Shown piece by piece: positions 27,094 through 51,589 of a stretch of 64,000 bases of DNA. The first letter of the stretch is position 1. Each line of letters starts with the position of its first letter. The translations under genes were made by a program, and so were the position numbers. The stretch is from Lacimicrobium alkaliphilum. GTDB taxonomy: Bacteria > Pseudomonadota > Gammaproteobacteria > Enterobacterales > Alteromonadaceae. The DNA is taken from NCBI RefSeq assembly GCF_001466725.1, contig NZ_CP013650.1:3906001-3970000 (forward strand), written 5' to 3'. Under the pieces are notes generated by a model that was not told the origin of the DNA, ran no database searches, and saw only the letters and a program-made list of their open reading frames with translations.

Positions 27094-27101
27094 TACAACA
27101 G

Positions 27102-35153: not shown

Positions 35154-35852
35154 TCAACAACAATCAATAAAGCTGCTGATAGTGAGGCGGCCCTGGCGGG
35201 GATCCGCTGACAGGCTGGCATTGGCCGGGATGGCGCCGCTGTGCAGGGAGTGTCTTCGATAGACGATCAGACGGTTGAATACTCCCTGCTGTTCCGCAAT
35301 CTTTTCAAATAGCGGCGTATCGCCACTGATATAGCCTTCGCTGGCTTTAGGCAGATTGGGTCCGTTGTTTTCGGCCTCCAGTGAACGGAAATACTCCGGT
35401 GCCCGGCCCTTATCAATGGTTTCAAAGCCGGTTTTTCGATGGCGATAAAAGGCGGTACCGCCCTGATCGCCCTCAAACAAATAGTGCACTGCGGCAAGGG
35501 CATCGCGCTCAGGCGTATCGAAATGGGGTATGCGTTGCAAGAGTTTTAGCTGCTGTGGCGGCGTAGTCACCACCGAAAAGTGGCAGACAGAAAAACTCAA
35601 TGAGTTTGCGGGCAGCCCGAAAGCGTCGATCAGGGTGGATTCGAGGCTTTGCAATAACAACTGGCGGTAACGGGCCGGGGCGGCGGCGCGGATTCCCGGG
35701 TAATAGGGCGAGTTGGCCACAAGGTGCTCTTTGCAGGCCTGCTCCACCAGCCATTGGGACTGGTCAACAAAATTATCCACTACCAGCAGTGGCGCCTGCT
35801 CCTTACCTATATGCAGGCTCTGGATCTGCATATTCTTGTGGGTAGACAACAT
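35154..35852 (-). CDS. DUF6445 family protein, 2OG-Fe(II) oxygenase-like residues
   Basis: A 232-residue protein of the DUF6445 group that accompanies TonB-receptor/halogenase loci. A pattern HxD (H110, D112 in IPHFD), a distal histidine in SLHSG (H204) and an arginine in GRLTISSF (R222) matches the metal and 2-oxoglutarate ligands of Fe(II)/2OG dioxygenases; this assignment is my inference. The open frame extends to 35897, but the ATG at 35852 has GGAGAA 7 bases upstream and starts 4 bases after the halogenase stop, so it is preferred. It is the last gene of the module SapC-cupin-halogenase-DUF6445. A second paralogue is at 42639-43307. Substrate and cell compartment unknown; no signal peptide is seen. 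Confidence 0.75.
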   Translation of the reverse strand: MLSTHKNMQIQSLHIGKEQAPLLVVDNFVDQSQWLVEQACKEHLVANSPYYPGIRAAAPARYRQLLLQSLESTLIDAFGLPANSLSFSVCHFSVVTTPPQQLKLLQRIPHFDTPERDALAAVHYLFEGDQGGTAFYRHRKTGFETIDKGRAPEYFRSLEAENNGPNLPKASEGYISGDTPLFEKIAEQQGVFNRLIVYRRHSLHSGAIPANASLSADPRQGRLTISSFIDCC

Positions 35853-35856
35853 GCTG

Positions 35857-37344
35857 CTATTCTCCCTCAGCCGGGCAATAGCGACCGATAAAGTCACTAT
35901 GTCCGGGCAGTCGTGCCACTACCTGATTGATAGTCCGGCGGATTCCCTGTAAGTGTTGGGTCAGTTGCTGTTCGCTCAGTGTGGAGACAATTTTCTGATA
36001 ACTTTTTGGTATCAGCCGCTGGCCCAGCATCACGTGGGTCCAGGATTCAAGCCGGAATAATTCCTCACCGGTCTGAAACGCATGGGCACCTTCTCTGAAC
36101 AGCTCCATTCTGTGAGCCAGCGAATCGGGGATCGTCATATTGCGGCAATAACGCCAGAATTCGCTGTCATCACGTTCGGTCTGGTGATAATGCAGAATAA
36201 TAAAATCGCGGATTTTCTCCAGTTCGCTGATCGATTGCTGGTTATATTCGTCGATCAGAGGCTGGGTGACACCGTTAAAGGGAAACAGCCTCAGCAAGCG
36301 GATCACGCCGTTCATAAACAAATAGATACTGGTTGATTCCAGCGGTTCGATAAACCCGCTGGACAGCCCCAGTGCCACACAGTTTTTGTTCCAGAACAGT
36401 TTGCGGCGGCCGGTTTTATAGCGCAAAACCCTGGGCGTCATTAATGCCTGTGTCTCCAGATTACCCAGCAGGCGCTCGCGGGCCTGTTCCTCTTGCAGAT
36501 AATCACTGGCATACACCAGGCCATTACCAACTCGATGTTGCAGCGGGATCCGCCATTGCCAGCCCGCATCATGGGCCATGGCCCGGGTGTAAGGCGGCAG
36601 CGTATCGGCAGATTCGGTCTGTACTACTACCGCAGAATCGCAGGGAAGCCAGTGGCCCCAGTCTTCAAAGCCGGTTTGTAGTGTCTGCTCAATCAACAGC
36701 GCCCGGAAACCGGTGCAGTCGATAAACAGATCGCCCTCCAGCTCCTGCCCTGACTCCAGTACCAGCGAGCTGATATCCCCATTGGCATGTTGTCTTACCT
36801 CAGCGATTTTTCCTTCAATTCTTGTGACCCCCTGCGCTTCACTGAAACCGCGCAGAAACCGGGCGTAGCGCCCGGCATCCAGATGGTAGGCGTAACTGAT
36901 ACCGGAGCTGTCTGTTTTGCCGAATTTATGGGCCTGAGCCGCTTGTAATTCATAACAGTAATCTCCCAGTGGCGCGTCGATACCTAATTGCAGACCATGC
37001 AGATAATAGTGCTGAAAATCAGCCAGAAAGCTGCCTTTGCCGGTAGTGCCGAAGGGATGCATATATTTATCGCCAACTTGCCCCCAGTTTTCAAAACTGA
37101 TCCCCAGTTTAAAGGTGGCATCGGTGGCACGCATAAATTCCTGCTCATCGATACCGAGCAGATTGTGGAACAACTGCACCGGTGGAATGGTCGATTCGCC
37201 CACCCCTACGGTGCCGATATCCTCAGACTCCACCAGCACCACTTCGACCAGGCCATTTAGTCTTTTGCTGAGGGCGGCAGCAGCCACCCAGCCTGCGGTA
37301 CCCCCACCGGCAATCACAACTTTTGTTACGACATTATCCTGCAC
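35857..37344 (-). CDS. Flavin-dependent tryptophan halogenase family protein (copy 1)
   Basis: A 495-residue FAD-dependent halogenase-type protein. It has the FAD motif GGGTAGW (13-19), the catalytic lysine in TFKLG (K79, the same number as in PrnA), the family WxWxIP box as WQWRIP (262-267) and FIEPLEST (331-338) with the conserved glutamate. The key residues for making and using hypohalous acid are thus retained. Homologues next to TonB receptors (for example BrvH-type proteins) halogenate free indole in vitro; their physiological substrate is not known. No signal peptide, so cytosolic. It needs a flavin reductase from elsewhere. It lies between the cupin gene (22-base gap) and the DUF6445 gene (4-base gap). 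Confidence 0.87.
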   Translation of the reverse strand: MQDNVVTKVVIAGGGTAGWVAAAALSKRLNGLVEVVLVESEDIGTVGVGESTIPPVQLFHNLLGIDEQEFMRATDATFKLGISFENWGQVGDKYMHPFGTTGKGSFLADFQHYYLHGLQLGIDAPLGDYCYELQAAQAHKFGKTDSSGISYAYHLDAGRYARFLRGFSEAQGVTRIEGKIAEVRQHANGDISSLVLESGQELEGDLFIDCTGFRALLIEQTLQTGFEDWGHWLPCDSAVVVQTESADTLPPYTRAMAHDAGWQWRIPLQHRVGNGLVYASDYLQEEQARERLLGNLETQALMTPRVLRYKTGRRKLFWNKNCVALGLSSGFIEPLESTSIYLFMNGVIRLLRLFPFNGVTQPLIDEYNQQSISELEKIRDFIILHYHQTERDDSEFWRYCRNMTIPDSLAHRMELFREGAHAFQTGEELFRLESWTHVMLGQRLIPKSYQKIVSTLSEQQLTQHLQGIRRTINQVVARLPGHSDFIGRYCPAEGE

Positions 37345-37366
37345 GGCAATTCCTCATTCACTGCGC

Positions 37367-38404
37367 TTAACGGTTCAGCCGGTTAAGCAACATGGCCCGT
37401 AACTGGCGGGCCTGCATCTCATCCAGTTCGCCCAGCACGCCCCGCGCCGCTTCCGGCAAATGGCGGCCTGCCTGCTGTGGATCGTCAAACACGTAATAGG
37501 CCAGTACTTCCTTCCAGGCCCGGCGTTCGTGCTCCGGTTTATCACGCAGGCATAACAGGGCATGATAAAGCACATTCATACCCGAACCCGTATACCGGGG
37601 TGCTTCACTCCACCAATAGTTGATCAGCAGGTTAAAGGGATCCAGCGCTTCTACCTGGTGCCACCACATACTGGGCAAATATAAGGCATCACCAGGTTCC
37701 AGCTCTGCCACCTGCCCGGCTTGCAGCGCCTGTGGAAAATTCGGATAGCGACTAAGATCGGGGTTGGCAAAGTCCACCATACTGATGGCCTGCCCGCCTG
37801 GTGTCGGCTCCAGCGGACCGGGATAGAGGTTGGCGATCTGCTCAGGTGGAAACAGACTGAAGCGCCGGTGGCCGGCCACGCAGCAGGCCAGATTATCCGA
37901 AGCATCATAATGGCAGGCGGCCAGAGAGCGATTACCGATCCAGATGCTGACCCGCTCAGGCTCAGTGGCCAAATCCGATGGCTGGCGTGGTAAACGGATA
38001 TCGTTCTGTTCACGTAGTTTGGGAAAATGAGTATGAATAACATTCGAGGCGATATAATAGCTTGGCGGCGGTGACTGCTCCGCAGCGGCCAGCATCATCT
38101 CCAGTGCCTCGTCGATGGGGCCGATGCGGGTTTCATAATTCAGTCTGGTAACGGATTCATCATAGAAGTAGCGCCCTTCTATACCCGGTTCACCGCAGCA
38201 AATCTGGCTGGGCCTGCCGTTGTAGTGCTCACACAGATAATCCACCACCGCCCGGTCAGACTGACCCGCCAGCTCTGTCAGCTTCCAGTCGCTGACCAGC
38301 CCTTTAAGCACTACAGGTTCATGGTTGCTCAAAACCTCTGGCGGGATCTGGCCCGGCTGACAGTCCTCAATGACCTGAGTGCGGCGAGCAATGGCTGAAC
38401 TCAT
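37367..38404 (-). CDS. JmjC/cupin-8-like oxygenase domain protein
   Basis: A 345-residue cupin-like protein similar to JmjC hydroxylases. The iron facial triad is visible as H165-Y-D167 (ACHYDASDN) and H249 (PSMWWHQVEALD), with the GDALYLPSMWWH strand typical of the family. Such proteins hydroxylate protein side chains or small molecules using Fe(II) and 2-oxoglutarate. The last 80 residues are helical. It overlaps the SapC gene by 4 bases and precedes the halogenase by 22 bases, so the three are coexpressed. The target is unknown; modification of a partner protein of the TonB system is one possibility (inference). Confidence 0.82.
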   Translation of the reverse strand: MSSAIARRTQVIEDCQPGQIPPEVLSNHEPVVLKGLVSDWKLTELAGQSDRAVVDYLCEHYNGRPSQICCGEPGIEGRYFYDESVTRLNYETRIGPIDEALEMMLAAAEQSPPPSYYIASNVIHTHFPKLREQNDIRLPRQPSDLATEPERVSIWIGNRSLAACHYDASDNLACCVAGHRRFSLFPPEQIANLYPGPLEPTPGGQAISMVDFANPDLSRYPNFPQALQAGQVAELEPGDALYLPSMWWHQVEALDPFNLLINYWWSEAPRYTGSGMNVLYHALLCLRDKPEHERRAWKEVLAYYVFDDPQQAGRHLPEAARGVLGELDEMQARQLRAMLLNRLNR

Positions 38405-39153
38405 GCCCTCTCCCTGCGCCTGTCTGGTTGACGGTTCTTGCGCTCAATCAGCGGCCGTATATTGGTCATGGAGCCGATCACGGCGAAGGCCAGCTGCAGG
38501 TATCCGGCCCGGTGCAATTGCTCCAGTTGCTGACCATTGAGCTGTGCCAGGCGCTCTTCATTGATGCCGTAATTGCCAATCAGGCGATGTTTCTGACCAC
38601 TGTTCAGTTCAAACTCGATATTTATCGGCTCAATCAGATTTAATTGCTCAAAGGCGGAAAACATGCCCTTTTGCAGCGCCATGCCCTGATGAATTGCCTG
38701 CAGTTTAAGGGAAATATACTCAAGGTAGGGGCTGTTGCCCCCCTGAGACAGAAACAGCGGCTGTCCCTCACTTTCAGTAACCTTAGGATGATCCATATCG
38801 ATATGCACTACCGGCTCAGCCTTTTCTCCGTGCATATCCTGCTGGCGCTGAAAGCCGATAAGAAATGGGCCGCGCTCGACGCTGGCGGGAATAGAGCGGG
38901 CATCCCAGCCTGAGGCAGCGCTTTCATCCAGAAACAGATTCTCGCTGTCGGAAAATCCCAGCAGGGCAATGGCCTGATAGGGGCCATCTTCTTTATCACG
39001 GCGAAACAGGATGGGATAATCTTTCTGCAATTCGATAAATTCGGTGGGGAATACCGGCACACTGGCCACATTGTCACCGTACTGGCTACCAAACTGATGC
39101 ACTACATGGGTATGCTGATGGGTAATATTATTCAACAATTCATGTCTGGCCAT
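38401..39153 (-). CDS. SapC family protein
   Basis: About 250 residues, matching the SapC family, named after an S-layer-associated protein of Campylobacter. The VPVFPTEFIELQKDYPILFRR opening, the GFQRQQDMHGE stretch and the C-terminal block from FGSMTNI-like IGSMTNIRPLIERKN are characteristic of homologues that sit beside TonB receptors and halogenases. No catalytic motif is recognised. The frame is open from 39168, but the ATG at 39153 has GAGGAG 8 bases before it and is preferred. First gene after the TonB receptor, separated from it by 145 bases that contain hairpins. Role unknown; no signal peptide. Confidence 0.82.
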   Translation of the reverse strand: MARHELLNNITHQHTHVVHQFGSQYGDNVASVPVFPTEFIELQKDYPILFRRDKEDGPYQAIALLGFSDSENLFLDESAASGWDARSIPASVERGPFLIGFQRQQDMHGEKAEPVVHIDMDHPKVTESEGQPLFLSQGGNSPYLEYISLKLQAIHQGMALQKGMFSAFEQLNLIEPINIEFELNSGQKHRLIGNYGINEERLAQLNGQQLEQLHRAGYLQLAFAVIGSMTNIRPLIERKNRQPDRRRERA

Positions 39154-39168
39154 ACTGTTACTCCTCAT

Positions 39169-39212
39169 CTATACCCAAATAACTTCAGATACTAAAAGTC
39201 ACTTGGGTATAG
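39169..39212. other. Inverted repeat upstream of the SapC gene
   Basis: CTATACCCAA (39169-39178) and TTGGGTATAG (39203-39212) form a perfect 10-base inverted repeat with a 24-base interior, just outside the SapC start. It could be an attenuation hairpin or a regulator site in the spacer between the TonB receptor and its downstream satellites. Confidence 0.4.
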
Positions 39213-39229
39213 CCGTTACTGACGGATCA

Positions 39230-39284
39230 AAGCCGCTGTCACCAGCGGCTTCTGGTTGTACTACTTGTCCGCCGGTTACGGCGG
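39230..39284 (-). terminator. Two tandem hairpins after the first TonB receptor gene
   Basis: AAGCCGCTG (39230-39238) pairs perfectly with CAGCGGCTT (39243-39251) around a 4-base loop, and CCGCC (39269-39273) with GGCGG (39280-39284). Both lie just downstream of the receptor stop codon in its direction of transcription. The T-run after the 9-base stem is short (three T), so termination is probably partial, letting some transcripts reach the SapC-cupin-halogenase genes. Confidence 0.5.
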
Positions 39285-39298
39285 GGGCTAAGTGCCGA

Positions 39299-42200
39299 TC
39301 AGAAGGCGTAACGCGCACCCAACTGATAACGGGCACCGAGGTCAGTCAGATACCATAACATGGCTTCATTACGGGCATGACTGCGACTGTTCTCGCCAGT
39401 TACATTAATACCTTCAGCGAACACTGTCAGTTGGTCGGTGATATCGTAACTGACACTCATATCAATCTGCCAGTAGGCTTCTTCAAACCTGGGGTTGTTG
39501 GATCCCCCTTTGTTTACCTCAGCCAGATATTTATCACGCCAGTTCCAGGCGATTCTTGCCTGTAAGCCGTCTTTCTCATACATGCCAATCAGGTTAGCGG
39601 TATCACTCAGACCAATCAACGCAAACTGCGACTCATTCGGATCTGCGGTCACATCAAAGCCCACATCACCACGCACAATGGTGTAGTTGGCCTGCACACC
39701 ATAACCCGTTTCACCAAAGAAGTGCTGAATCGCAAACTCGGCACCATAAAGTTTGGCTTCCCTGTTATTATCCGGCGTGTCGGTACGGAACTCCATCAGC
39801 GGATCGTCCGGATTTGCAGTCAGATCAAATCCTGGATTATTAGCCAGAAAATCAATCTCAGCCTGCGTCCCGGTAAACTGCGGATTAGGCCCGAACTCGG
39901 CAATCATATCCGGATGATCCCGGTACTCATTAAACACCATCATCGAATACAGATAGGTATCGTCCAGCGGGAAACCGGCATTCACTACATCCTGAGCGGC
40001 CGCCTGAGCACGGGGCCCACCGGTGACATCACGGATATCCAGCAGCGGCTGATCCACCTGACGACTGCCGATAAAGTTAATAACGTTTTTCTGGAAAAAG
40101 CCCGCCGACATATAACTGTAGGGGTTGTAATACCATTCCAGCGACAGATCAAAGTTGGAGGATTCCAGCGGTAGCAGCGCTGGATTCGACGCTTCTGCTG
40201 TGGGCTGAGCACCAAGCAACGTGGAACCGCCTCCCCCACCGAAGTTAGACGCCGATACCCCCAGATCACCCAGTCCTGCCCGGGCAATGGTCTTGCTGAA
40301 GGAGAAACGGCCTTTCAGATCATCGGTAATATTGAGGCTGACGTCGAGACTGGGAAGCAGGTAGTCGTAATCGTTCTCTGCGCTGACCGGTTGCGGCGGC
40401 ACATCGCCGTTTACACGAGAAACAATATCGTTGTTATCCTCCCATACGAAGAACACTTCACTGACCAGCGAACTGGATTTGGTCTCAGTTTTCTCATACC
40501 GCGCGCCGGTGAGCACATCGAAGGTCATATCACCCAGCTCACCGCTAAAGGCGACCTGAAAGTATGCTGCCAGGGTGTCTTCTGAGACGATATCGTCATA
40601 AGACAGGGCTTCTTCTGATGCGGTTGGAATACCAGGATACAAATCAAGACCGGCATCGTACAGCGCGCGGGGATCGGCAATAAAACCATAGCCGCCGTCG
40701 AGGGTATCGTAGTCATCAAACTCATTGGGCAGATCAAAAGGCTGTACCAGATCACCGAACTCACCGGGATTTCCCACGTTCCAGTTACCCATGGCAATAT
40801 TATTACCAGCGGTTTGTATGGAACGGGATTCCATCTCCCGGGCCTCGACCCCAAAATCGAAGCGACCATCATCAAACTGATAGGTACCATCCAGTTTGAT
40901 TTGCTTGATATCACTTTCCTGGCTGGCATTTCTGAGCCTGGCGATGGATGAACCTACATCGCCCGGGTCAACCATGCCATTAGCGTTCGCGCCCTTGTCC
41001 GGCAACGTGTCGTCATACACATTCAGATAGGTGGGCAAGTCACTCCCATAGAACCATTCGCGGGAGGTTACAATAGGCGCACCCAGACCCACAGCCAGTT
41101 CACCGGTGTTGCGCGGTCCGGTGCCACGGCTGTATAACTCTGAACTGTGCGCATCCAGCGCCAGACTGAGGTCATCATTGACATGGTATTCCAGATTAAT
41201 ACCAAAGGACTTCAGCGTATTAGTCTGCTCCCGCCACTGCTGCTCGTACCCTTCGTCCACAGCACCGGCATAGGTTTCCTGAATATAAGTGGGAGTTTTG
41301 ACGATATTATTATCAAACTCCACCACCTTGGTATTGCTGCCGGTTTGTACCCAGTTGGTGATTTCACCGCGATGCTCGACAATTTCATTCTCAGCAAAGG
41401 TGTAATCGGCGGTAGCGGTAAAGTTGTCTGAAGGTCTGAACTGTAAGGTCAGTTGCGCGTTATCACGTACCCGCTCAGTATTGGAGAAGGCATAGCGAAT
41501 ATCATTGGGGCGGGTATACAGCTGGCCCTGTTCCGGTGCGTTACGCACTTCCGTTTCAGTGTTGTTCCAGAGCCGGTCGGCATCGGCAAGATCATCCCAG
41601 TAATCCACCTGCCAGTCATTGACTGTGGCCCCGGTATAGCCGGAGTCCCGTTGCTGATGGCTGGCAGAGAGGCTGACACCAAATCTGGCTTCATCATCGG
41701 TATAGCTGAAAATACCTGAAACTTCAGGCGTAACATCATCGCCGGTCCGATTGGTGGTGTCATGGGCGGCTTTCACACCGACGCTGGCCACCATTCCCTC
41801 GTTGTCCAGAGGCCGTGCGGTTTTAACGTTAATAGTGGCACCGATGCCGCCAGTGGCGATATCCGCCTTGCCGGTCTTATACACTTCCACTGCTCTGATA
41901 CTCTCAGAAGCAAGATTGGCAAAATCAAAGGCCCGTGCGTTACCTCCACGGGTGGTGCCATCGGCTCCGGAACCTGCACCATAAGTGGTGGCAGAAGGCA
42001 TGGTACGGCCATTTAAGGTGACCATATTGTTATCACCACCGAAGCCACGTACCGTCACTTCTGAGCCTTCACCATTAGTGCGGCTGATGGACACACCAGT
42101 AATACGCTGCAGGGACTCCGCCAGGTTAGTGTCCGGGAATTTACCTATGTCCTCTGAGGAGATGGCATCCACCACCCCCATAGAACTGCGTTTAATCATG

Positions 42201-42382
42201 GTCGCTTCCTGCATACTGGAACGCAGACCGCGTACCTGTATGACTTCTACGGCATTGTCCTGGGCCTGATCAGTCTGAGTCTGATTCTCCTGCCCGTGGA
42301 GGGGCAAGACCACCGCGCCGCCCATCAGCAGCGAAATACTTTTCGCCAGAGCGGACTTTGTAAATCTTCGTTGTGTTTTCAT
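39299..42382 (-). CDS. TonB-dependent receptor (copy 1), large carbohydrate type
   Basis: A 1027-residue outer-membrane receptor. A signal peptide (cleavage near LHGQE) is followed by a plug domain beginning VEVIQVRGLRSSMQEA, with EDIGKFPDTNLAESLQRITGVSI and VTVRGFGG, then a 22-strand barrel ending in the required C-terminal aromatic (RYAF). The plug sequence matches the Caulobacter/Xanthomonas-type receptors (TIGR01782 group) that import plant-derived oligosaccharides. It heads the leftward module with SapC, cupin, halogenase and DUF6445, and has a LacI-like operator 150 bases upstream. Imported substrate is inferred to be a xylo-oligosaccharide from the surrounding genes. Diverged from copy 2 in both length and sequence. 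Confidence 0.93.
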   Translation of the reverse strand: MKTQRRFTKSALAKSISLLMGGAVVLPLHGQENQTQTDQAQDNAVEVIQVRGLRSSMQEATMIKRSSMGVVDAISSEDIGKFPDTNLAESLQRITGVSISRTNGEGSEVTVRGFGGDNNMVTLNGRTMPSATTYGAGSGADGTTRGGNARAFDFANLASESIRAVEVYKTGKADIATGGIGATINVKTARPLDNEGMVASVGVKAAHDTTNRTGDDVTPEVSGIFSYTDDEARFGVSLSASHQQRDSGYTGATVNDWQVDYWDDLADADRLWNNTETEVRNAPEQGQLYTRPNDIRYAFSNTERVRDNAQLTLQFRPSDNFTATADYTFAENEIVEHRGEITNWVQTGSNTKVVEFDNNIVKTPTYIQETYAGAVDEGYEQQWREQTNTLKSFGINLEYHVNDDLSLALDAHSSELYSRGTGPRNTGELAVGLGAPIVTSREWFYGSDLPTYLNVYDDTLPDKGANANGMVDPGDVGSSIARLRNASQESDIKQIKLDGTYQFDDGRFDFGVEAREMESRSIQTAGNNIAMGNWNVGNPGEFGDLVQPFDLPNEFDDYDTLDGGYGFIADPRALYDAGLDLYPGIPTASEEALSYDDIVSEDTLAAYFQVAFSGELGDMTFDVLTGARYEKTETKSSSLVSEVFFVWEDNNDIVSRVNGDVPPQPVSAENDYDYLLPSLDVSLNITDDLKGRFSFSKTIARAGLGDLGVSASNFGGGGGSTLLGAQPTAEASNPALLPLESSNFDLSLEWYYNPYSYMSAGFFQKNVINFIGSRQVDQPLLDIRDVTGGPRAQAAAQDVVNAGFPLDDTYLYSMMVFNEYRDHPDMIAEFGPNPQFTGTQAEIDFLANNPGFDLTANPDDPLMEFRTDTPDNNREAKLYGAEFAIQHFFGETGYGVQANYTIVRGDVGFDVTADPNESQFALIGLSDTANLIGMYEKDGLQARIAWNWRDKYLAEVNKGGSNNPRFEEAYWQIDMSVSYDITDQLTVFAEGINVTGENSRSHARNEAMLWYLTDLGARYQLGARYAF

Positions 42383-42532
42383 TCTGTTGTATCCCTCAAT
42401 GTGTTAGTGAGTGACCCTGCGCAGATTTTTTTTGTGCTCACCTTCAGGCGTACTGCCAGCATCTGCGGCTCTGTGTCTAACGCTGGCCCGATGGTTTTTA
42501 CGAAATACAACATCAAAACGAGACCAACGTTA

Positions 42533-42546
42533 TGAAAACGATTGTA
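42533..42546. promoter_or_regulatory. LacI-family-like operator upstream of TonB receptor copy 1
   Basis: TGAAAACGATTGTA, 12 of 14 positions matching the core TGAAAACGATTTCA seen at 59194. It lies 150 bases before the receptor start in a 256-base gene-free gap (42383-42638). The central ACG/CGT asymmetry with outer TGA/TCA is typical of LacI-family sites. Confidence 0.55.
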
Positions 42547-42638
42547 GTATGACCCCGTTGACTTTTAGCTTGTAAAAATACGTTTATAGATTGTGATTTT
42601 TAACAAATGATTAACAGCGGGTTACGAAATTTAAGAAT

Positions 42639-43307
42639 TTAAACGCTGAGGAAGGAAGCAATAGTAAACCGGCCACTCAGAGGATTGAGGTCATAACCAT
42701 AATCAGGCCCGATGTCCCCTGAATGCAGGGAAGAACAACGATAGATCAGCGCCCGGTTGAAGCGGGCTGGAATGGATGCGATGCGCTCAAAAACAGAGGT
42801 GTCGCCATTGATATAGCCCGTCGGCAGGGCTGATTCTCTCAGATCTGCCTCCAGCCGGTGCTGATATTCAGACTGACGTTCAGCAGTGACAGATTCAAAG
42901 CCGGTACTGCGATGGCGGTAGAAGCTGGTACCGCCATGCTGTTCATTGCACAGATAGTGGATTATCGCCAGTTCATCCGGATGAGGCCGGTCAAAATGAG
43001 GCAGGCGTTGTAGCAGAGTTAATTCATTTGCTGGCGTGCTGACCAGAGAATAATAGCAATCGGCCTTGCCTAACTCGCCAGCCGACGCCCCGAAAAAGGA
43101 GATCAGATGCAGAACAAGCTGTTCCAGCAGAAACTGCCCGTAGGCCGGCGGTGCCGGTGAGCGCAAGCCCGGATACTGACCGTCGGCGGGCAACACATTG
43201 GTCTGTTGCATGGCAAAATCGATAAGACCACCGGGATTTGGCACAAAGTCATCCACGATCAGCAGTGGCTGCTGCTCATGGCCAATATGCTGAACGGTCA
43301 GTTGCAT
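42639..43307 (-). CDS. DUF6445 family protein (copy 2)
   Basis: A 222-residue paralogue of the protein at 35154-35852, sharing the layout LLQRxPHFDxP, HYLxxxxxGGTxFYRHRxTGFE, SLHSG and GRxTIxSF. The candidate Fe(II)/2OG ligands are all kept: H104, D106, H195 and R213. The start ATG shares one base with the stop of the halogenase upstream (TGATG), so translation is coupled. It is the last gene of the second receptor module, the same position that copy 1 holds in the first module. Function unknown; an oxygenase role is inferred from the residue pattern only. Confidence 0.75.
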   Translation of the reverse strand: MQLTVQHIGHEQQPLLIVDDFVPNPGGLIDFAMQQTNVLPADGQYPGLRSPAPPAYGQFLLEQLVLHLISFFGASAGELGKADCYYSLVSTPANELTLLQRLPHFDRPHPDELAIIHYLCNEQHGGTSFYRHRSTGFESVTAERQSEYQHRLEADLRESALPTGYINGDTSVFERIASIPARFNRALIYRCSSLHSGDIGPDYGYDLNPLSGRFTIASFLSV

Positions 43308-44815
43308 CAGTAAACTTTCCGGGCTTTGCAGTGCTGATCAATAAACTCCTGATGCGAGGGCATATAATCCACCGATTTACGAATCACGCCACGAATGCTC
43401 TCCAGTCGCCGGGCCAGTTCCTGCTCGCTGAAAATATCCGCCAGCGGATGATAACCCCGCGGCTCAATGCCCTGCCCCAGCATCACTTCAAACCAGCTCA
43501 AATCACTGAACATTTCGTTGTTGAAGCGAAACACCCGCCCGTTGGAGCGAAATTGCTCTATTTTCTGGGTCAGTTCCTCGGGTACATCCATGGTCCGACA
43601 GTAATCCCAGAACGGCGAGTCATCCCGCTGCGTGGCATAATAGTGCAGGATCAGAAAATCCCGGATCCTGTCATAGTCGAAGTGCATCTGACGGTTAAAT
43701 TCATCAATATCGGCCTGCGCAAACTGGCGGTCAGGAAAGAAGCTGAACAACTTGGAAATTGCCGCCTGCACCATATGCAGACTGGTAGACTCCAGTGGCT
43801 CCATAAAGCCTCCGGCAAGGCCAACGGCCAGGCAGTTCTTGTTCCAGAACTGCTTGCGCTTACCGGTTTTAAAGCGGATCCGGCGTGGTTCGGCCAGCGG
43901 CTCGCCATCCAGATTTTTAAGCAGGATATGGGTGGCTTCATCTTCTGACATAAACTGACTGCAATACACATGGCCGTTACCCACGCGGTGCTGCAACGGA
44001 ATTCGCCACTGCCAGCCGGCTTTTTGCGCGCTGGCACGGGTAAAGGGCCAGGGCTCCTTAGTATTAGCGCTGGGCACCGCAATGGCATTGTCACAAGGCA
44101 GCCAGTGGCTCCAGTCCTCAAAGCCGGTTTTCAGGGTCTGTTCGATCAGCAGGCCACGAAACCCTGAACAATCAATAAAAAAGTCGGCTTCATGTTCACT
44201 GCCATCTTCGAGCAGCAATGAATGGATAAAGCCGTTGTCATGCTGGCGTACCTCAACCACCTTGCCTTCGGTGCGCTGCACGCCCCACCCCTGCGACAAC
44301 TCGCGAAGGTATTTGGCAAACAGGCCCGCATCAAAATGAAAGGCATAGGCGATATTTGACAAGGGGGAGTTACCTGCGTCGATGGAGCGCATAAAACGTT
44401 TTTCATGGCAGGCCAGCGACGTCAGCGTATAGTCATCCAGCGGCGCTGCCTTGCCCAAAGCCCGCAGTTTCAGCCAGTAATGGTAGAACTGCACACCTTC
44501 CATGTTCTTGCCCACGTCGCCGAAAGCGTGGAAATAACTGCTGCCGGGCTTGTGCCAGTCAACAAACTGGATACCCAGTTTGAAGGTACCCTGGGTGCGG
44601 CGCACAAACTCATCTTCATCCAGACCAATAAGCTGGTTGTAAAGCATAATCTGCGGAATTGTGGCCTCACCTACGCCCACGGTGCCAATCTGTTCCGACT
44701 CAATCACCTGAATCTGACAGTACTGATTTTTTAATACTTTACCCAGTGCCGCAGCAGTCATCCAGCCTGCGGAACCGCCGCCCAATACAATGATTTTTCT
44801 TAATTTTTCTGTCAT
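43307..44815 (-). CDS. Flavin-dependent tryptophan halogenase family protein (copy 2)
   Basis: A 502-residue halogenase-type flavoprotein with GGGSAGW (12-18), catalytic lysine in TFKLG (K79), WQWRIP box and GFMEPLEST with the conserved glutamate, so the active site appears intact. The open frame starts at 44842, but the ATG at 44815 with GAGG upstream gives the standard N-terminus and lies 13 bases after the stop of the degenerate paralogue, so it is preferred. It is clearly similar to copies 1 and 3 but not a recent duplicate. Cytosolic; substrate unknown; probably needs reduced FAD from a separate reductase. Confidence 0.87.
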   Translation of the reverse strand: MTEKLRKIIVLGGGSAGWMTAAALGKVLKNQYCQIQVIESEQIGTVGVGEATIPQIMLYNQLIGLDEDEFVRRTQGTFKLGIQFVDWHKPGSSYFHAFGDVGKNMEGVQFYHYWLKLRALGKAAPLDDYTLTSLACHEKRFMRSIDAGNSPLSNIAYAFHFDAGLFAKYLRELSQGWGVQRTEGKVVEVRQHDNGFIHSLLLEDGSEHEADFFIDCSGFRGLLIEQTLKTGFEDWSHWLPCDNAIAVPSANTKEPWPFTRASAQKAGWQWRIPLQHRVGNGHVYCSQFMSEDEATHILLKNLDGEPLAEPRRIRFKTGKRKQFWNKNCLAVGLAGGFMEPLESTSLHMVQAAISKLFSFFPDRQFAQADIDEFNRQMHFDYDRIRDFLILHYYATQRDDSPFWDYCRTMDVPEELTQKIEQFRSNGRVFRFNNEMFSDLSWFEVMLGQGIEPRGYHPLADIFSEQELARRLESIRGVIRKSVDYMPSHQEFIDQHCKARKVY

Positions 44816-44828
44816 TACTGCCTCAATT

Positions 44829-46247
44829 TCAACGGTCAACAAAAGGTGCTGCCAAACAGCGGCTAAGGGTTTGTTGATGTTCAGGCATCCCCACCACCAG
44901 ATTATTCAGATGATAGCGGATTTTCTCCATCGCATCGGCTATCTCTGTGGGGCTGTTGCACGCAAGCAGCCGACTGGGCAATTGTGGCCGTAAGCCCAGA
45001 CCATAGAGCAGCGCAATACGCTGAACATTGCGTATGGCATCGGTTTCCTGCATTGGCAACCTTCCCAGGCGGGCGAATAAGCGACCGGATTCGGTCTCCA
45101 GCGGCGCCTGGTGATATTTCAGGTAGTCCAGTGATTCTTGGTAATACAGTTGCCAGTGTTGATTAAACAGGCTTGCAGTCGCCGGGCAAAGGGTCTGATT
45201 CGGCAGCAGATCCAGCCAGCGGATCAGCAGATATTGCAGCGCGCCAAGATCATCCAGTAGCGGGCTGTCCAGCGCCTCTGCAGCCAGACCCAGCTTCAGG
45301 CAGTTAGCCTGCCAGAGATGCTGAGGTGCCTGCTGCCGTCTGTGTCGTGTTTTCCAGGCGGGCTTTGCCAGTCGCTTTTCGAGCCATTCAGTTATCTGCT
45401 CCTGGCGGTGCAGTGACGGGCTGAACTCCGTATACCAGATACATCTTCCCTGCAACGGATGGTTTACCAGCCACCCCCACGGCGTCCGTTCTACCGATGT
45501 ATATGGCCGGTTCAGCTCAGAGCCTGGTTGTTCTGCGGATAACTGTATCCGGCAAGCGGCACTGTCTGCCTGATCCGCCGCCGGGCGGCAGTCGATAAAA
45601 AAATCCAGCGGCAGGGTTTGTCCGTCATCCAGCACAACATGCTGTATCACGCCCTCTGCTGTTTGTTGCATATTCAGGGTTTCGCTTTGTACAAACGCTA
45701 CCCCCTGTTGCTGGTTATATTGACGCAACACTGCGGCGAAAGCATGGCTGTCCAGATGTAAACCAAAGTCCAGTAAGGCTTTGAGATCCGGCCGGCTCTG
45801 TGGGGCCAAAGCGAACTTGCCATGCCGGGCGGCATGGGCGGCCAGACAATAGGGCTCAAGCTGTTGGTCGGGCTGTGTGGCCAGGTAGCCGAACAGTCCC
45901 TGCTCGAATTCAGCCCCATTCTGGCTCAGACCAAAGCTGCCGTAGGGTACAAACCAGCCCGATGACGGCGGACGCGCCTCACTGTTTGCTGCGTCCTTAT
46001 AATCCCGTCCCAGACTGAAGGTAGCACTGGCCTGTCGCAGTATCTCTATCATATTCAGGCCCAGCATCTGACATACACTTTGCAGCTCGGGACCGCAGGC
46101 CACACTGCCGGACTCAGGTTGTAAACCGGGCATTTCGATTGCGCTGCAATGCATCCCGAAGGGTTTAAGTTGCCTGCAGGCCAGCGCTACTGCCATCTGC
46201 AGCCACAAGCCCTGACCCACAAATACAAGCTGGCGGATTGACCTCAT
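44829..46247 (-). CDS. Degenerate halogenase-like protein lacking catalytic residues
   Basis: A 472-residue intact reading frame homologous to the flanking halogenases but stripped of their key motifs. The FAD dinucleotide motif GGGxAGW is replaced by VGQGLWLQ, the catalytic lysine position reads TFSLG (S78), the WxWxIP box is WGWLVN, and the EPLEST glutamate region reads EALDSPL. The alignable frame (FFIDC, LNNLVVGMPEHQQTLSRCLA at the C-terminus) shows it is the same fold. It overlaps the preceding halogenase by 4 bases and is followed by the next after 13 bases. With no stop or frameshift, it is probably a maintained pseudoenzyme, such as a partner subunit, rather than a pseudogene (inference). 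Confidence 0.8.
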   Translation of the reverse strand: MRSIRQLVFVGQGLWLQMAVALACRQLKPFGMHCSAIEMPGLQPESGSVACGPELQSVCQMLGLNMIEILRQASATFSLGRDYKDAANSEARPPSSGWFVPYGSFGLSQNGAEFEQGLFGYLATQPDQQLEPYCLAAHAARHGKFALAPQSRPDLKALLDFGLHLDSHAFAAVLRQYNQQQGVAFVQSETLNMQQTAEGVIQHVVLDDGQTLPLDFFIDCRPAADQADSAACRIQLSAEQPGSELNRPYTSVERTPWGWLVNHPLQGRCIWYTEFSPSLHRQEQITEWLEKRLAKPAWKTRHRRQQAPQHLWQANCLKLGLAAEALDSPLLDDLGALQYLLIRWLDLLPNQTLCPATASLFNQHWQLYYQESLDYLKYHQAPLETESGRLFARLGRLPMQETDAIRNVQRIALLYGLGLRPQLPSRLLACNSPTEIADAMEKIRYHLNNLVVGMPEHQQTLSRCLAAPFVDR

Positions 46248-47788
46248 CTGCCACTCCGAAAGCCATACAGGCTATTGATGGCTGGCGGTTCCCTGGCCGC
46301 CATATTCTGTTGTAACGCGTCGGCATGTTTGGGCATCTGAGCCGCCATCTGTTGTAATTTTTGCTGATAGTCAGAGAACCAGGCCATGGCAGATGCCTGA
46401 CTCTGGCTGTCCAGACGAGCATCCAGATTCCCGGGATACTCCCCCTGCCCCAGTGCCACTGCCAGCCAACTGGCAGGCTGGAACAGACCCTGTCGGTATT
46501 CCAGCAGGTGCCCGGTTTCCCGGTACATGGCCAGACGTTCAGCCAGACTGTCAGGAATCTCCATCTGCGCGCAGTGTTGCCAGAAGGGCTCTGGGCGACG
46601 GTTTAGCTTGTAGTGCAGAATCAGGAAATCCCGCACCCGCTGGTATTCCAGTTCCATGGTACGGTTGAAGTACTGCCGCTCTGTGTCACCTATCTGTGTG
46701 CCCGGAAAACAAGCCAGCAACTGCTGGATAGCCACCTGAATCAGATACAGACTGGTAGACTCCAGTGGCTCCAGAAAACCCGATGACAGACCAATGGCAA
46801 CACAGTTTTTCACCCAGCTATGGCGGCGCCGTCCGGTCACAAATCTCAGTGACTTAGGGTCATTCAGTGCCATTTCCTGCAAACCGGATAGCAGAGTTTC
46901 CTCAGCCTGTTGATCAGACATAAATTCACCACAATACACCAGGCCGTTACCGGTTCGGTGCTGCAACGGTATACGCCATTGCCAGCCAGCTGCTGTGGCC
47001 CGGGAGCTGGTATAGACCGGAGGGTTACTATTCGCATCGCTTGGCACTGCCAGTGCTCTGTCACAGGGAAGCCAGCGCTGCCAGTTTTCATAGCCGGCGT
47101 GCAGATGTTGTTCAATCAGAACACCGGCGAAGCCGGAACAATCGATAAACAGATCCCCTTCCACCTCTCTGCCATCATCAAGTTTGAGGGCGCGAATATC
47201 GCCACTGCAATGCTGAGATACTGCTTCAACCCTGGCATCCAGCCACTCTACACCCTGCTCAATACAGCGCTCTCGCAGCAATTTCGCGTACAAGGTGGCA
47301 TCCATATGAAAGGCATAGTTGTAGGCTGATAAAGGATCATCGGGCTGCTCTTGCGGATAGCTGAAATGACCTCCCTGGGCCATTAAGACCGCCATCGAGT
47401 AATGATCATAGGGTTTCAGGCCGGCTTGTTGATGCTGGCGTAACCACAGCCAGTACTGATGAAAGGGAAGCCCATTGAGATCCTCGCCACTGAAACCGAA
47501 GGGATGAAAATAACTGGCGGCCTCCTTGCCCCACCCCTGAAACCGAATGGCCAGTTTATAGGTCGCACCCGTGGACTGGATAAACTGACTTTCATCCAGT
47601 CCAATCCATTGATTAAACTGGCGAATATGAGGGATAGTGGCCTCTCCGACACCTACAGTTCCAATCTGAGACGACTCCAGCAAGCAGATGTCGAATTCGC
47701 TGGCAGGCAAATATCTTACCAGGGCTGCTGCTGTCATCCATCCGGCGGTACCGCCACCTAAAATGATAATACGCTGTCGCTGCGACAC
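46244..47788 (-). CDS. Flavin-dependent tryptophan halogenase family protein (copy 3)
   Basis: A 514-residue halogenase-type flavoprotein with GGGTAGW (11-17), the catalytic lysine in TYKLA (K78), the WQWRIP box and GFLEPLEST, so it appears catalytically competent. The start is GTG at 47788. It is the first gene after the TonB receptor copy 2 and is separated from it by a strong intrinsic terminator, so its level is probably set by read-through. Its C-terminus is longer than copy 1 by about 20 residues. No signal peptide. Substrate unknown. Confidence 0.87.
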   Translation of the reverse strand: MSQRQRIIILGGGTAGWMTAAALVRYLPASEFDICLLESSQIGTVGVGEATIPHIRQFNQWIGLDESQFIQSTGATYKLAIRFQGWGKEAASYFHPFGFSGEDLNGLPFHQYWLWLRQHQQAGLKPYDHYSMAVLMAQGGHFSYPQEQPDDPLSAYNYAFHMDATLYAKLLRERCIEQGVEWLDARVEAVSQHCSGDIRALKLDDGREVEGDLFIDCSGFAGVLIEQHLHAGYENWQRWLPCDRALAVPSDANSNPPVYTSSRATAAGWQWRIPLQHRTGNGLVYCGEFMSDQQAEETLLSGLQEMALNDPKSLRFVTGRRRHSWVKNCVAIGLSSGFLEPLESTSLYLIQVAIQQLLACFPGTQIGDTERQYFNRTMELEYQRVRDFLILHYKLNRRPEPFWQHCAQMEIPDSLAERLAMYRETGHLLEYRQGLFQPASWLAVALGQGEYPGNLDARLDSQSQASAMAWFSDYQQKLQQMAAQMPKHADALQQNMAAREPPAINSLYGFRSGR

Positions 47789-47811
47789 CTGTTGTCTCAG
47801 TATTCAAAATG

Positions 47812-47850
47812 AAAAAAAGGTGCGCCCCGGTTAATCACCAGGAGCGCACC
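47812..47850 (-). terminator. Intrinsic terminator after TonB receptor copy 2
   Basis: On the minus strand, GGTGCGC (47850-47844) pairs with GCGCACC (47825-47819), with an inner GGT/ACC pairing, and is followed by seven T residues (47818-47812). It sits 26 bases past the receptor stop and 24 bases before the GTG of halogenase copy 3, so it separates a highly expressed receptor from its satellites. Confidence 0.85.
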
Positions 47851-47875
47851 CACACCACACACATTAGCGCACAAC

Positions 47876-50800
47876 TCAGAAGTTGGCCCGCATCACCAGG
47901 GCAATTCTGCGATCCGAGACAAACCATGAGCGTCCGGCTTCCAGACCTTCATTATTCAGCATCATAATGGTTTCCGACTGGGAGTTGGTCAGATTGGTGC
48001 CCTGCAATCCAATAGTGAAATTGTCATTCACATTGTAAAAGATTGAGCCATCCAACTGACCATGATCGTCGTACCACAATGGCGCCTTACTGATCACATC
48101 CCTGGTGGTGAGCAGATATCGGGAGCGCCAGTTGTATGCAAGACGCGCACTCCAGTCTCCTTTTTCATACATGCCTACCAGGTTGAAGGTGCGGTCTGAC
48201 TGCCCCTGCAAGGGCACATTATCCAGATCCACCCGAATACCCGTGTCATTGTCAGGATTGCCCACCCACTCTGCGTCATCCAGAGATTCTTCGTTATTGG
48301 GTACGCCACCAGCGTCGATATAGGTAAAGCTCGCCTGTACCCCCAAACCATCCCAGGGCTCCGGCAATTTATCGAAAAATTGCTGATAAGCAAGCTCAAG
48401 ACCATCCATCTTGCCCTTACCACCATTAGTGGTGGTGGTCACCAGATGGGTCTGTGAGGTACCGGTGCTCGGGTTGGTAAAGTTCTGGGCGAAAGCCCCC
48501 TGAATAAAGTAATTATCCAGTTCCTTGTGGAACAGGGTAACGCTCAACTGGCCTACATCAGCAAAGTACCACTCCAGCGCCACATCATACTGAATAGATT
48601 CCATTGGCTTGAGGAAAGGGTTACCACCGCTGCCGGTCCAGGCAGGTGTAAAGGCGTACTGGATGAGATTGTCCTCAGGCTGCGGCGGATTGTCAGGGTC
48701 CACCTCGTCCGTGGGTCTGACCGCTTCTATCGGCTCGGCACCTAAATTAGCGCGGTACTGTACATCCCCCATATCCGGCAGCGCCACAGCCTTGGAAAGA
48801 GCAAACCTGCCCACCAGATCATCGGTCAGTTCCACCTTAATATTAAAGCTCGGCAACCACATCTTGAAGGTAGTATCGGCCGCCAGTGCGGCTTCGGTAT
48901 CGTTACCATAGGCCTGTTCCTGGGCAGGCAGATAATTGACCTGCTCACCTATCCAGCGATTTTCCTCTGCTGCAAGGGCTTCTTCGAAACTGGCGTAAGT
49001 ACCATCGGCAATCTGCTGATTAACATAGGCCGTAACCACTTCAGGGGTAAGCTGGGTACCTCTTAACTCGCCAGGTGCCGGGAAGTCCGCCACCAAATCA
49101 GGGAAGGTAATAAAGCCCAGCGCCTCACGATTAAGCTCCACATAACGCATACCAATATTACCGCTGTAGCGCAGATCACCGTCCCCTTCAAAATTCAGCC
49201 GCAGATAGATGGCCTTATTGGTTTCGGTGGTGTCATTAATCTCGCCTGGGGTGAAAATACCAAATTCACTGTCCACGTTGTCACGCTGAGGATAGGGCTG
49301 CCAGCTACCACCAGCCGACATAAAGGGCTGACGGGCCGGATTGGCGCCCATAATAGAGCGCACATAGGCCTCTGTCGCATGAATGGTCTGATTGCCAGGG
49401 ATATTCGCCACATCACCGTCATGAAAATCTGACCAGTCCACCAGCTCAAAGTCGGACTCCGCGCCTTCCAGCGTATCCAGCCATCCAGCCGGGGCGGCAC
49501 CACTGAACTCAGGTGCCAATGCTCCCCAGTTCCAACTGGTGCTACGTACTATTTGTTCGCGCTTGGCATAACGTACGCCGGCCTGTAACGAGGTCAGGAT
49601 ACCTCTGTCTTGAAAGTGATATTCTCCGTCGAAACGCACGGCAAAGGAATCACCTTCCGAGCGCTCATAGTGATCCATGGCGCTGCGCAGGAAATAGGAA
49701 GTGGGATCCTGGAAGTAATTGCTGTCACCGGCAGGATCACCACTGAAGCCCGGATAACCACTGGCAAACAGATCCGGATTCTCATCCCGGTAACCCATCC
49801 AGGGTTCAATCAGCCGCACTGTTGGCGTAGAACCACGAACATCATATTCCTGTACGGCAAAGCTGCCGGTGTGTACCACCACATCGTCATCACTGGTTTC
49901 CGCCTGCACATACTGAATATCTGTGCTCAGGGTCAGGTAATCCGTGGCTTTCCATTCCAGATTCAGTGAGAAGTCTTCCACCAGGGTTTCGGTATCCTTA
50001 ACCCGGCTGTCAAACTGAGTTTTGTGACCAAACTGACTGCGGGCATTGTCACCCCAGGCGCGGGGTACACGATCGACGTTGCCGTCTGCAGCCCGCCAGC
50101 CATCCACACCCTGCGTGATAATCCCGGCTTCAAACAGCCCCTGATCATCAAACTCGAACTCAGTGCCCTCCATTGGCCTTGAGGTACGGGCGCCGAGTTC
50201 CTGATAACTGCCCTGATATTTTATCGCCTGCTCATGCCAGGACAGCCTGGCATCAGAGCGGATATACTGGAACGTAGCCAGGAAGGTTTCATCGGCATTT
50301 TCAAACTGCAAGGCCGTGGCAAAGCCTTTGCGCTCTCTGTCATCAAATTTGTTCAGCAGGTTGGAGGCATTGGGGATCCATACCACGCCCTCGCCATCGG
50401 CTCCGGCAAATTCCCCGGCACCTGGCAGGTTGTTGGCATAATAGGTAGTGTAGGCATCAGACTGGATACCGTGAGAGGCTCCATACAAACGGGAGTGAGC
50501 CAGGTTAAACAGCATGCCAAACTCGGCACCACTGTCGAGTTCAAATCTGTCACTGTATAAAGCGGAAAAGGTTGGGCTGCCTTTTTCGGCTAGATCTCCG
50601 TAGGAGTAGTCACCACCAAAGGCAAATACCCGACCGTCAGAATCAAAGGGCTTGCGGGTACGTAAGCTGACCGTACCACCGATACCACCTTCAATCATAT
50701 CGGCAGTCTGGTTTTTATAGATATCCACCCCGCCCATCAGTTCGGGCGACACATCCTGAAAAGACAGACCGCGGCCAGAGTTCGCCGTAAAAGAATCACG

Positions 50801-51205
50801 ACCGTTGAATTCACTGCGGGTCTGGGTCATACCACGAATAATGGCGCCGCTACCTTCCACGCTGAAATGGTCCGGATCATCGGGTCCGGCAAAGCGCTCA
50901 ATAGATACCCCAGGCACCCGCTGAATGGCTTCCAGTACACTGCGATCGGGCAGTACGCCGATATCTTCTGCAGAGATGCCGTCTACCACGGTATCAGAAT
51001 ACCTTTTCATATTCTGGGCACTTTGCAGATTGGCGCGGACACCTGTCACCTCAACGACTTCGACATCTTCACCTTTGTCTTCTGTAGCTTCGCCAGAGTC
51101 CTGTCCATAGGCACTGACCGACATACCGATCATCGCCATGGCCAACATCGACCTTTTGAATACGGGCAGTTGCCCTGCTTTGAAATTCGAACTGTTCCGC
51201 ACCAT
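47876..51205 (-). CDS. TonB-dependent receptor (copy 2), large carbohydrate type
   Basis: About 1109 residues. After a signal peptide ending near VSAYGQ, an acidic linker leads to the plug start VEVVEVTGVRANLQSAQN, EDIGVLPDRSVLEAIQRVPGVSIERF and IIRGMTQTRSEFNGRD; the barrel ends in LVMRANF with the C-terminal aromatic. The frame is open from 51295, but the ATG at 51205 has TTGGAG upstream and yields a normal signal peptide. The type matches receptors for complex plant glycans. It is followed by a strong terminator and then the halogenase genes, and lies downstream of a LacI-like operator and promoter at about 51562-51598. Substrate inferred as glucuronoxylo- or xylo-oligosaccharides. Confidence 0.93.
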   Translation of the reverse strand: MVRNSSNFKAGQLPVFKRSMLAMAMIGMSVSAYGQDSGEATEDKGEDVEVVEVTGVRANLQSAQNMKRYSDTVVDGISAEDIGVLPDRSVLEAIQRVPGVSIERFAGPDDPDHFSVEGSGAIIRGMTQTRSEFNGRDSFTANSGRGLSFQDVSPELMGGVDIYKNQTADMIEGGIGGTVSLRTRKPFDSDGRVFAFGGDYSYGDLAEKGSPTFSALYSDRFELDSGAEFGMLFNLAHSRLYGASHGIQSDAYTTYYANNLPGAGEFAGADGEGVVWIPNASNLLNKFDDRERKGFATALQFENADETFLATFQYIRSDARLSWHEQAIKYQGSYQELGARTSRPMEGTEFEFDDQGLFEAGIITQGVDGWRAADGNVDRVPRAWGDNARSQFGHKTQFDSRVKDTETLVEDFSLNLEWKATDYLTLSTDIQYVQAETSDDDVVVHTGSFAVQEYDVRGSTPTVRLIEPWMGYRDENPDLFASGYPGFSGDPAGDSNYFQDPTSYFLRSAMDHYERSEGDSFAVRFDGEYHFQDRGILTSLQAGVRYAKREQIVRSTSWNWGALAPEFSGAAPAGWLDTLEGAESDFELVDWSDFHDGDVANIPGNQTIHATEAYVRSIMGANPARQPFMSAGGSWQPYPQRDNVDSEFGIFTPGEINDTTETNKAIYLRLNFEGDGDLRYSGNIGMRYVELNREALGFITFPDLVADFPAPGELRGTQLTPEVVTAYVNQQIADGTYASFEEALAAEENRWIGEQVNYLPAQEQAYGNDTEAALAADTTFKMWLPSFNIKVELTDDLVGRFALSKAVALPDMGDVQYRANLGAEPIEAVRPTDEVDPDNPPQPEDNLIQYAFTPAWTGSGGNPFLKPMESIQYDVALEWYFADVGQLSVTLFHKELDNYFIQGAFAQNFTNPSTGTSQTHLVTTTTNGGKGKMDGLELAYQQFFDKLPEPWDGLGVQASFTYIDAGGVPNNEESLDDAEWVGNPDNDTGIRVDLDNVPLQGQSDRTFNLVGMYEKGDWSARLAYNWRSRYLLTTRDVISKAPLWYDDHGQLDGSIFYNVNDNFTIGLQGTNLTNSQSETIMMLNNEGLEAGRSWFVSDRRIALVMRANF

Positions 51206-51561: not shown

Positions 51562-51589
51562 TTATTAGCTGCCGGGAAGAAAACTGCAA
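51562..51589 (-). promoter_or_regulatory. Candidate promoter of TonB receptor copy 2
   Basis: On the minus strand, TTGCAG (51589-51584) and TAATAA (51567-51562) are 16 bases apart. The -35 box overlaps the LacI-like operator at 51585-51598, which would let a repressor block it directly. Confidence 0.4.

Follow-up and report, generated by a model that had tools for sequence, protein, structure and literature searches.

In the chromosome of Lacimicrobium alkaliphilum, two neighboring gene modules combine a TonB-dependent receptor with satellite genes for flavin-dependent halogenases, predicted oxygenases and, in one of them, a SapC protein. We analyzed these modules in a stretch of 64,000 nucleotides (NZ_CP013650.1, positions 3,906,001 to 3,970,000), hereafter called the window. 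The new point to emerge is that a halogenase triplet of the order active-dead-active is conserved and linked to a single receptor clade. Collectively, the evidence points to a cassette associated with receptor lineages, with oxygenases that lean toward the protein type. The reading that we favor, with a probability of roughly 0.4, is that the satellites form cytosolic, receptor-lineage-specific oxidative modification cassettes acting on a polypeptide, possibly the receptor before its export.

All ten open reading frames (ORFs) of the two modules were confirmed, and they lie on the minus strand between 35154 and 51205. Module 2 runs in the order TBDR2 (receptor, 47876..51205), FDHc (46244..47788), FDHdeg (44829..46247), FDHb (43307..44842), and DUF6445b (42639..43307), and module 1 in the order TBDR1 (receptor, 39299..42382), SapC (PF07277, 38401..39168), Cupin_8 (37367..38404), FDHa (35857..37344), and DUF6445a (35154..35897). 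The first-pass annotation had described two same-direction modules within a xylan regulon, each a receptor followed by satellites that end in a DUF6445 protein; the ORFs and family matches confirm this arrangement, and glycoside hydrolases do flank the modules on both sides. Both receptors match TIGR01782, the TonB-Xanth-Caul receptor family, with 636 and 641 bits, over a curated cut-off of 310. The satellite profile scores are likewise above cut-off: Trp_halogenase (PF04820) gives 630, 654, and 572 bits for the intact copies and 126 bits for the degenerate one, DUF6445 gives 264 and 250 bits, Cupin_8 244 bits, and SapC 214 bits. The TBDR2 ORF extends to a TTG at 51295, and its likely start is the ATG at 51205; FDHb is listed from a TTG, and a later ATG would give a protein of 502 amino acids. 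As listed, the ORFs of module 2 overlap at 46247/46244 (4 nucleotides, FDHdeg and FDHc), 44842/44829, and 43307/43307, which suggests translational coupling, and the second of these overlaps vanishes if FDHb starts at its later ATG.

A pseudo-halogenase subfamily in halogenase triplets

The three intact halogenases FDHa, FDHb, and FDHc keep the GxGxxG motif that binds flavin adenine dinucleotide, the catalytic Lys and Glu, the WxWxIP motif (as WQWRIP), and EPLEST. Their catalytic lysines are K79, K79 (counted from the ATG of FDHb), and K78. A recheck of these motifs agrees with what had been annotated for three halogenases, and the motifs are missing from the fourth. Compared with BrvH (6frl) and Xcc4156 (6y1w), FDHc has no long substrate-loop insertion at the sequence level; FDHa and FDHb likewise appear to have none, judged only via their alignment with FDHc. 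The nearest solved sequences are 9luq, 6y1w, and 6frl. By sequence, then, the three proteins belong to the BrvH/Xcc4156 group of flavin-dependent halogenases and are predicted to be active.

FDHdeg has a Ser at the position of the catalytic Lys, LDSPLL at EPLEST, and GWLVNHP at WxWxIP, and the catalytic Glu is lost. It lacks the features of an active flavin-dependent halogenase and is probably a noncatalytic relative of these enzymes. Three halogenase-fold proteins had been counted in module 2 by the first-pass annotation, and the count holds, but the membership of the middle one in a conserved noncatalytic subfamily had not been recognized. The comparison set was the best 80 of at least 585 relatives, retrieved from a genome collection with six aligned intact halogenases as the query. 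Of 17 fetched loci in which at least three halogenase genes are adjacent, 15 have a second gene without the catalytic Lys and/or Glu, a loss seen in 1 of 46 genes at other positions (Fisher p ~2e-11, shared ancestry not corrected for). A tree of 127 halogenases, for which 45 randomly drawn single-gene halogenases were offered and 44 kept after a length filter, places the middle-type genes (19 rows) on one side of a branch with 99% support and no single-gene halogenase among them, in a tree for which the program warns of long branches meeting. In the same tree, 17 of the 18 first-position genes group in a clade of 20 rows (98% support), to which FDHc belongs. Two loci are apparent exceptions, with the middle-type gene elsewhere: it stands first in L103, where the contig starts, and third in a run of five in L110, and both of these copies retain Lys and Glu. 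A separate run of five adjacent halogenase genes is found in Cellvibrio mixtus (L096, 3998-11515), with middle-type copies at positions 2 and 4.

Genes that score higher with a middle-type profile than with the general halogenase profile occur in the window module and in 19 of the 80 loci, and otherwise only as a single 22-bit match elsewhere in the L. alkaliphilum genome that we take as chance; in those 19 loci the gene is always beside other halogenase genes. None of 29 aligned middle-type members keeps EPLEST, while 5 keep the Lys, 8 the Glu, and 2 both, with motif positions uncertain in three very diverged copies (L101, L140, and L163). A protein search that scored only the 7996 candidates sharing most words gave 16 further relatives of FDHdeg (P0003-P0018, 43-85% identity), together with the window protein, a Gilvimarinus copy that had been part of the query, and four proteins at greater distance; the more distant matches P0019 and P0021 are intact halogenases. 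Twelve of the 16 close relatives were placed in one alignment (8 are in the 29-member motif alignment), and in all 12, S, N, or T replaces the Lys and [LV]D[SC]P[LM] stands in place of EPLEST. Some pseudo-halogenase members carry the source name "tryptophan 7-halogenase," a label that is very likely incorrect and might misdirect enzyme screens.

In the closest locus pair (L108 and L109), the middle gene has a ratio of nonsynonymous to synonymous substitution rates (dN/dS) of 0.17, compared with 0.04-0.05 in the remaining three genes; a second pair is saturated, and a third, with high dS, shows no contrast (0.20 versus 0.24 and 0.17). For each triplet gene, the distances among 16 triplet loci correlate with the receptor distances (r of 0.61, 0.76, and 0.87), although shared descent alone also raises such correlations. 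In all four genes, the alphaproteobacterial L159 and the gammaproteobacterial L108 are more similar than a median pair, which would fit movement of the triplet module as a unit, with the reservation that L159 is a metagenome-assembled genome for which misassignment is possible. We read the pseudo-halogenase as a noncatalytic subunit kept by selection.

Satellites and receptor lineages

The association with receptors was counted in 14 complete genomes (12 with any), in which 61 halogenases, 28 SapC, 9 DUF6445, and 74 receptors were placed. Of the 61 Trp_halogenase genes, 56 have a TIGR01782 receptor no more than 10 kb away, versus 2.9 expected under uniform placement; the corresponding figures are 19 of 28 versus 1.2 for SapC and 6 of 9 versus 0.4 for DUF6445. 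The co-occurrence with TonB receptors that had been stated for homologues of the satellites is therefore far above chance. From the other side, 37 of the 74 receptors have a satellite within that distance. These 74 receptors come from 81 rows, four of which were below the cut-off and omitted, with three fragment pairs each counted once. A broken DUF6445 fragment (G039) was omitted and a SapC fragment (G023) retained, and one receptor (G007 559291) counts as linked solely through the halogenase of the next receptor. The L. alkaliphilum genome itself has nine Trp_halogenase genes over the cut-off in four clusters, each at most 10 kb from a TIGR01782 receptor. Another receptor of this family in the same genome is apparently split into two ORFs (G000:C1:3778225-3780974). 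A receptor is included in 65 of the 80 best relative loci, several of which are on contigs that end early; because these loci were found through halogenases, the receptor frequency there is biased, and only the 14-genome figures are free of that bias.

We also sampled 110 genomes across the phylum. SapC is present in 42 of them and receptors (E <= 1e-120) in 11, a number that may be under-counted since at most seven candidates were scored per genome; 9 of the 11 also have SapC, and all 3 genomes with DUF6445 are among these 11. SapC as a receptor-only family was rejected on these counts (42 versus 11 genomes).

In a tree of 135 receptors, all 18 triplet-linked rows fall in one clade of 27 with 100% support, and TBDR2 is in this clade. 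TBDR1 belongs to an 11-row clade linked to SapC and halogenases, whose ten complete-genome members all have halogenases and nine of which have SapC. The sugar setting is less constant within this clade: TBDR1 belongs to a xylan locus, L048, from the same genome and clade, neighbors a LacI regulator and GH1, and L251, a further clade member, adjoins GH94 and GH3. The fullest gene order is also that of L251, namely receptor, halogenase, SapC, cupin, halogenase, and DUF6445. Elsewhere in the L. alkaliphilum genome, one module (L050) is beside an alpha-amylase and another (L049) is beside an amidohydrolase, a BadF-type kinase, and a transporter, a setting that by our reading is N-acetylglucosamine-like. 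Since the sugar varies while the receptor clade stays, the receptor lineage is the more constant partner, and the kind of satellite tends to go with the lineage of the receptor and not with the sugar. There are exceptions to this link: parts of the tree contain both linked and unlinked receptors (14 changes of the label "none" versus 32.5 when shuffled), and two near-identical receptors of one genome (L244 and L248) differ in satellite linkage. Halogenase-receptor pairs occur in Alpha-, Beta-, and Gammaproteobacteria, and the triplet with its pseudo-halogenase in Alpha- and Gammaproteobacteria.

Possible substrates of the satellites

If the satellites act on a polypeptide, the halogenases and oxygenases would halogenate or hydroxylate side chains of a protein made together with the receptor. 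As client, a not yet exported receptor precursor or a partner protein would be simplest, and the modification might tune receptor assembly or function while the sugar regulon is on. The pseudo-halogenase may serve as a noncatalytic subunit, for scaffolding or substrate recognition, in a complex with FDHc and/or FDHb. A full statement of this mechanism, in which a cytosolic halogenase/hydroxylase complex, in some lineages around a client-recognizing pseudo-halogenase, brominates or hydroxylates TonB receptors or a partner before export, is unlikely to hold in every part.

Predicted oxidative enzymes occupy every satellite slot except those of SapC and the degenerate halogenase. DUF6445a keeps H125, D127, H219, and R237, which correspond to an HxD...H metal triad and the Arg for 2-oxoglutarate and are invariant in 31 of 31 aligned rows; the same set is found in DUF6445b via alignment with DUF6445a. 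The fold of DUF6445 is predicted with high confidence as the double-stranded beta-helix of the 2-oxoglutarate/Fe(II) oxygenase superfamily, and with the metal and cosubstrate residues present, the DUF6445 proteins are predicted 2-oxoglutarate/Fe(II) oxygenases. The nearest fold matches are protein-side-chain hydroxylases. The Cupin_8 protein keeps HYD(165)...WWHQV(247), with the last His at 249, and is also nearest to protein-side-chain hydroxylases by sequence, so that we predict a JmjC/FIH-type oxygenase. The residue sets of both families were as first annotated. For SapC, the confident predicted fold had no match among solved structures by Foldseek or VIA, which does not show that the fold is new. 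In a crude hydropathy check, no satellite N terminus is as hydrophobic as that of TBDR1, in keeping with the earlier statement that the satellites lack signal peptides.

Several observations weigh against this reading or against a simple link of the satellites to the receptors. Small-molecule 2-oxoglutarate oxygenases match DUF6445 almost as well as the protein hydroxylases do. Nine SapC genes (L218-L226; in L. alkaliphilum, G000:C1:3608572-3609225), one per genome in 9 of the 14 genomes, are solitary and fall into two separate clades, which runs counter to a simple receptor cassette. Several of these solitary genes adjoin mraZ/mraW-like genes of a cell wall cluster, as seen by eye. Among the receptors, no Trp, Tyr, or His column is among the best-ranked columns that separate the linked clades (27, 45, and 11 rows) from 37 unlinked rows, a set not quite identical to the 37 unlinked receptors of the 14 genomes; the best aromatic-class column is at 0.93-1.00 in the linked clades versus 0.54 in the unlinked rows. 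Three-residue motifs around W, Y, H, K, and P in the receptors gave none that is decisive (best difference 0.40, for Gly-Gly-x-Pro), and receptor Trp content is not clearly higher when linked (group means of 1.29-1.64% versus 1.21%, with wide spreads). A conserved aromatic target residue in the receptors was therefore rejected. The first-pass annotation had proposed oxidative modification of an aromatic side chain or small aromatic; the idea of an oxidative modification system is reasonable, but an aromatic side chain of the receptor is unsupported by conservation.

Because no aromatic position separates linked from unlinked receptors, a small-molecule substrate is a serious rival. The enzymes would act on a small aromatic to produce or break down a signal or toxin that is halogenated or hydroxylated, the aromatic being one such as indole, a tryptophan derivative, or a plant phenolic, and would sit with the receptors since both are needed in the same habitat and regulon. 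An operator-like motif shared by the modules and xylan-locus genes (see below) is in line with this rival, as is the nearly equal match of DUF6445 to small-molecule oxygenases. Free indole is brominated by BrvH, and Xcc4156 accepts both free indole and derivatives of it (PMC5945002, PMC7336383), but BrvH shows low activity toward indole, and the authors of that study are doubtful that it is the native substrate (PMC5945002). A general small-molecule role does not predict that satellite type tends to track receptor clade, and no pathway for such a compound was recognized among the scanned window proteins, which lie beyond the first 9.4 kb, although an AMP-binding enzyme is located at 9465-11132. 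On balance, we consider a small aromatic substrate somewhat unlikely.

It is quite improbable that each satellite has a function of its own and is simply carried along in a receptor operon, with FDHdeg as a decaying duplicate. SapC is widespread without these receptors, half of the receptors have no satellites, and the FDHdeg-type genes are long-branched with catalytic residues lost. In addition, the gap between a receptor and its first same-strand satellite has a terminator-like hairpin in 47 of 67 cases versus 3 of 71 shuffled ones. However, the association is lineage specific across classes, the middle-type gene in its 19 of 80 loci is each time beside other halogenase genes, the 12 aligned orthologues share the same changed motifs at 43-85% identity, and the dN/dS of the middle gene is 0.17. 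In the window, the hairpin-rich gaps between TBDR1 and SapC (39169..39298, minus strand) and between TBDR2 and FDHc (47789..47875, minus strand) fold strongly, with z of -6.9 and -3.7. A terminator-like hairpin had been annotated after both receptors; this stands better for module 1, where a hairpin precedes a brief run rich in T (4 T in 7), whereas the terminator rule gave none in the gap of module 2. In a fixed stretch after the receptor, a hairpin occurs for 48 of 65 receptors that have a same-strand satellite, for 14 of 30 receptors that are linked otherwise, and for 18 of 37 unlinked ones. Since unlinked receptors also carry them, they are likely ordinary receptor terminators, and a special attenuator role was dropped.

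A role of the enzymes in modifying an aromatic group carried by the incoming glycan (ferulate on xylan, for example) would suit two receptors within a xylan locus but is very improbable, as the enzymes have no export signal by the crude check and related cassettes lie near GH1, GH94/GH3, alpha-amylase, or amidohydrolase/BadF-type kinase genes, where no feruloyl group is expected.

Genomic setting and known systems

The xylan setting comprises glycoside hydrolase genes of families GH115, GH43, GH10, GH9, and GH94 on one side of the modules and GH8, GH43, and GH3 on the other. An operator-like palindrome, TGNAAACGNTTNCA, occurs exactly upstream of TBDR2 (51585..51598), between the divergent GH9 and sugar-transporter genes (59194..59207), and, as a perfect palindrome, before the ORF starting at 63718 (63637..63650); copies with one mismatch lie upstream of TBDR2 (51340-51353) and TBDR1 (42533..42546), no strand being assigned to the palindromes. 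The three exact sites give five strand matches versus 0.04 expected, for a pattern chosen after looking, as it was found by comparing upstream regions of the window and then counted there. With two mismatches allowed, the motif is at chance level (18 matches versus 17 expected). It resembles the operators of LacI-type regulators. A xyl-box-like motif gave 3 matches with one mismatch in the window versus 1.28 expected, and 11 of 100 shuffles were as high. Three further features of the window lie outside the modules. One GH3 enzyme is apparently split into overlapping ORFs (27090-28037 and 27980-29698, plus strand) that divide the N-terminal domain between them, possibly by a frameshift or sequencing error. 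A NACHT-domain NTPase (15860-17629, plus strand) adjoins an RND efflux pair, and its PADLOC matches are weak. Just beyond module 1, on the opposite strand, an ORF of 119 amino acids (34719-35078, plus strand) is SnoaL-like by eye only.

Regulon studies have annotated halogenases in the vicinity of TonB receptors. We recognized no description of a halogenase-SapC-TonB link among the titles and abstract starts that searches of an open-licence library listed. The tie of the halogenases to receptor lineages, together with two predicted oxygenases resembling protein hydroxylases and a conserved inactive partner, directs attention to the receptors and to coexpressed proteins. Should the receptors be halogenated, this would be a new kind of outer membrane protein maturation, of which the same open-licence titles and abstract starts gave no description.

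Among known systems, the carbohydrate TonB-receptor (CUT) loci of Xanthomonas likewise combine receptors, glycoside hydrolases, and sugar transporters. A term search of the paper on them gave no halogenase, SapC, or cupin (PMC1790865). For the predicted oxygenases, the nearest solved sequences to the Cupin_8 protein are the JmjC hydroxylases FIH, JMJD5, and JMJD7, with HxD...H in common, but the best match aligns only residues 160-270 of 345. The protein hydroxylases OGFOD1/Tpa1, PHD2, the EF-Tu prolyl hydroxylase of P. putida, and LH3 are at 12-18% identity to DUF6445. For a comparison with MibH-type peptide tryptophan halogenases, no convincing precursor like those of ribosomally synthesized and posttranslationally modified peptides (RiPPs) was recognized by eye among the ORFs of three window gaps. 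The open site of BrvH has been compared with MibH (PMC5945002), and Xcc4156 has 26% identity to MibH (PMC7336383). The top PDB match of FDHb is 9luq (560 bits, residues 14-503), known by its entry name of "tryptophan halogenase." BrvH and Xcc4156 match FDHb and FDHc over almost the full length, with short gaps and the Lys, WxWxIP, and EPLEST kept in FDHc. Both enzymes have open active sites and accept indole, while what BrvH and the Xanthomonas halogenases act on natively is described as unknown, and term searches of the two papers gave neither TonB nor SapC (PMC5945002, PMC7336383). BrvH and Xcc4156 were studied singly, whereas the cassettes described here bring such halogenases together with a pseudo-halogenase and oxygenases.

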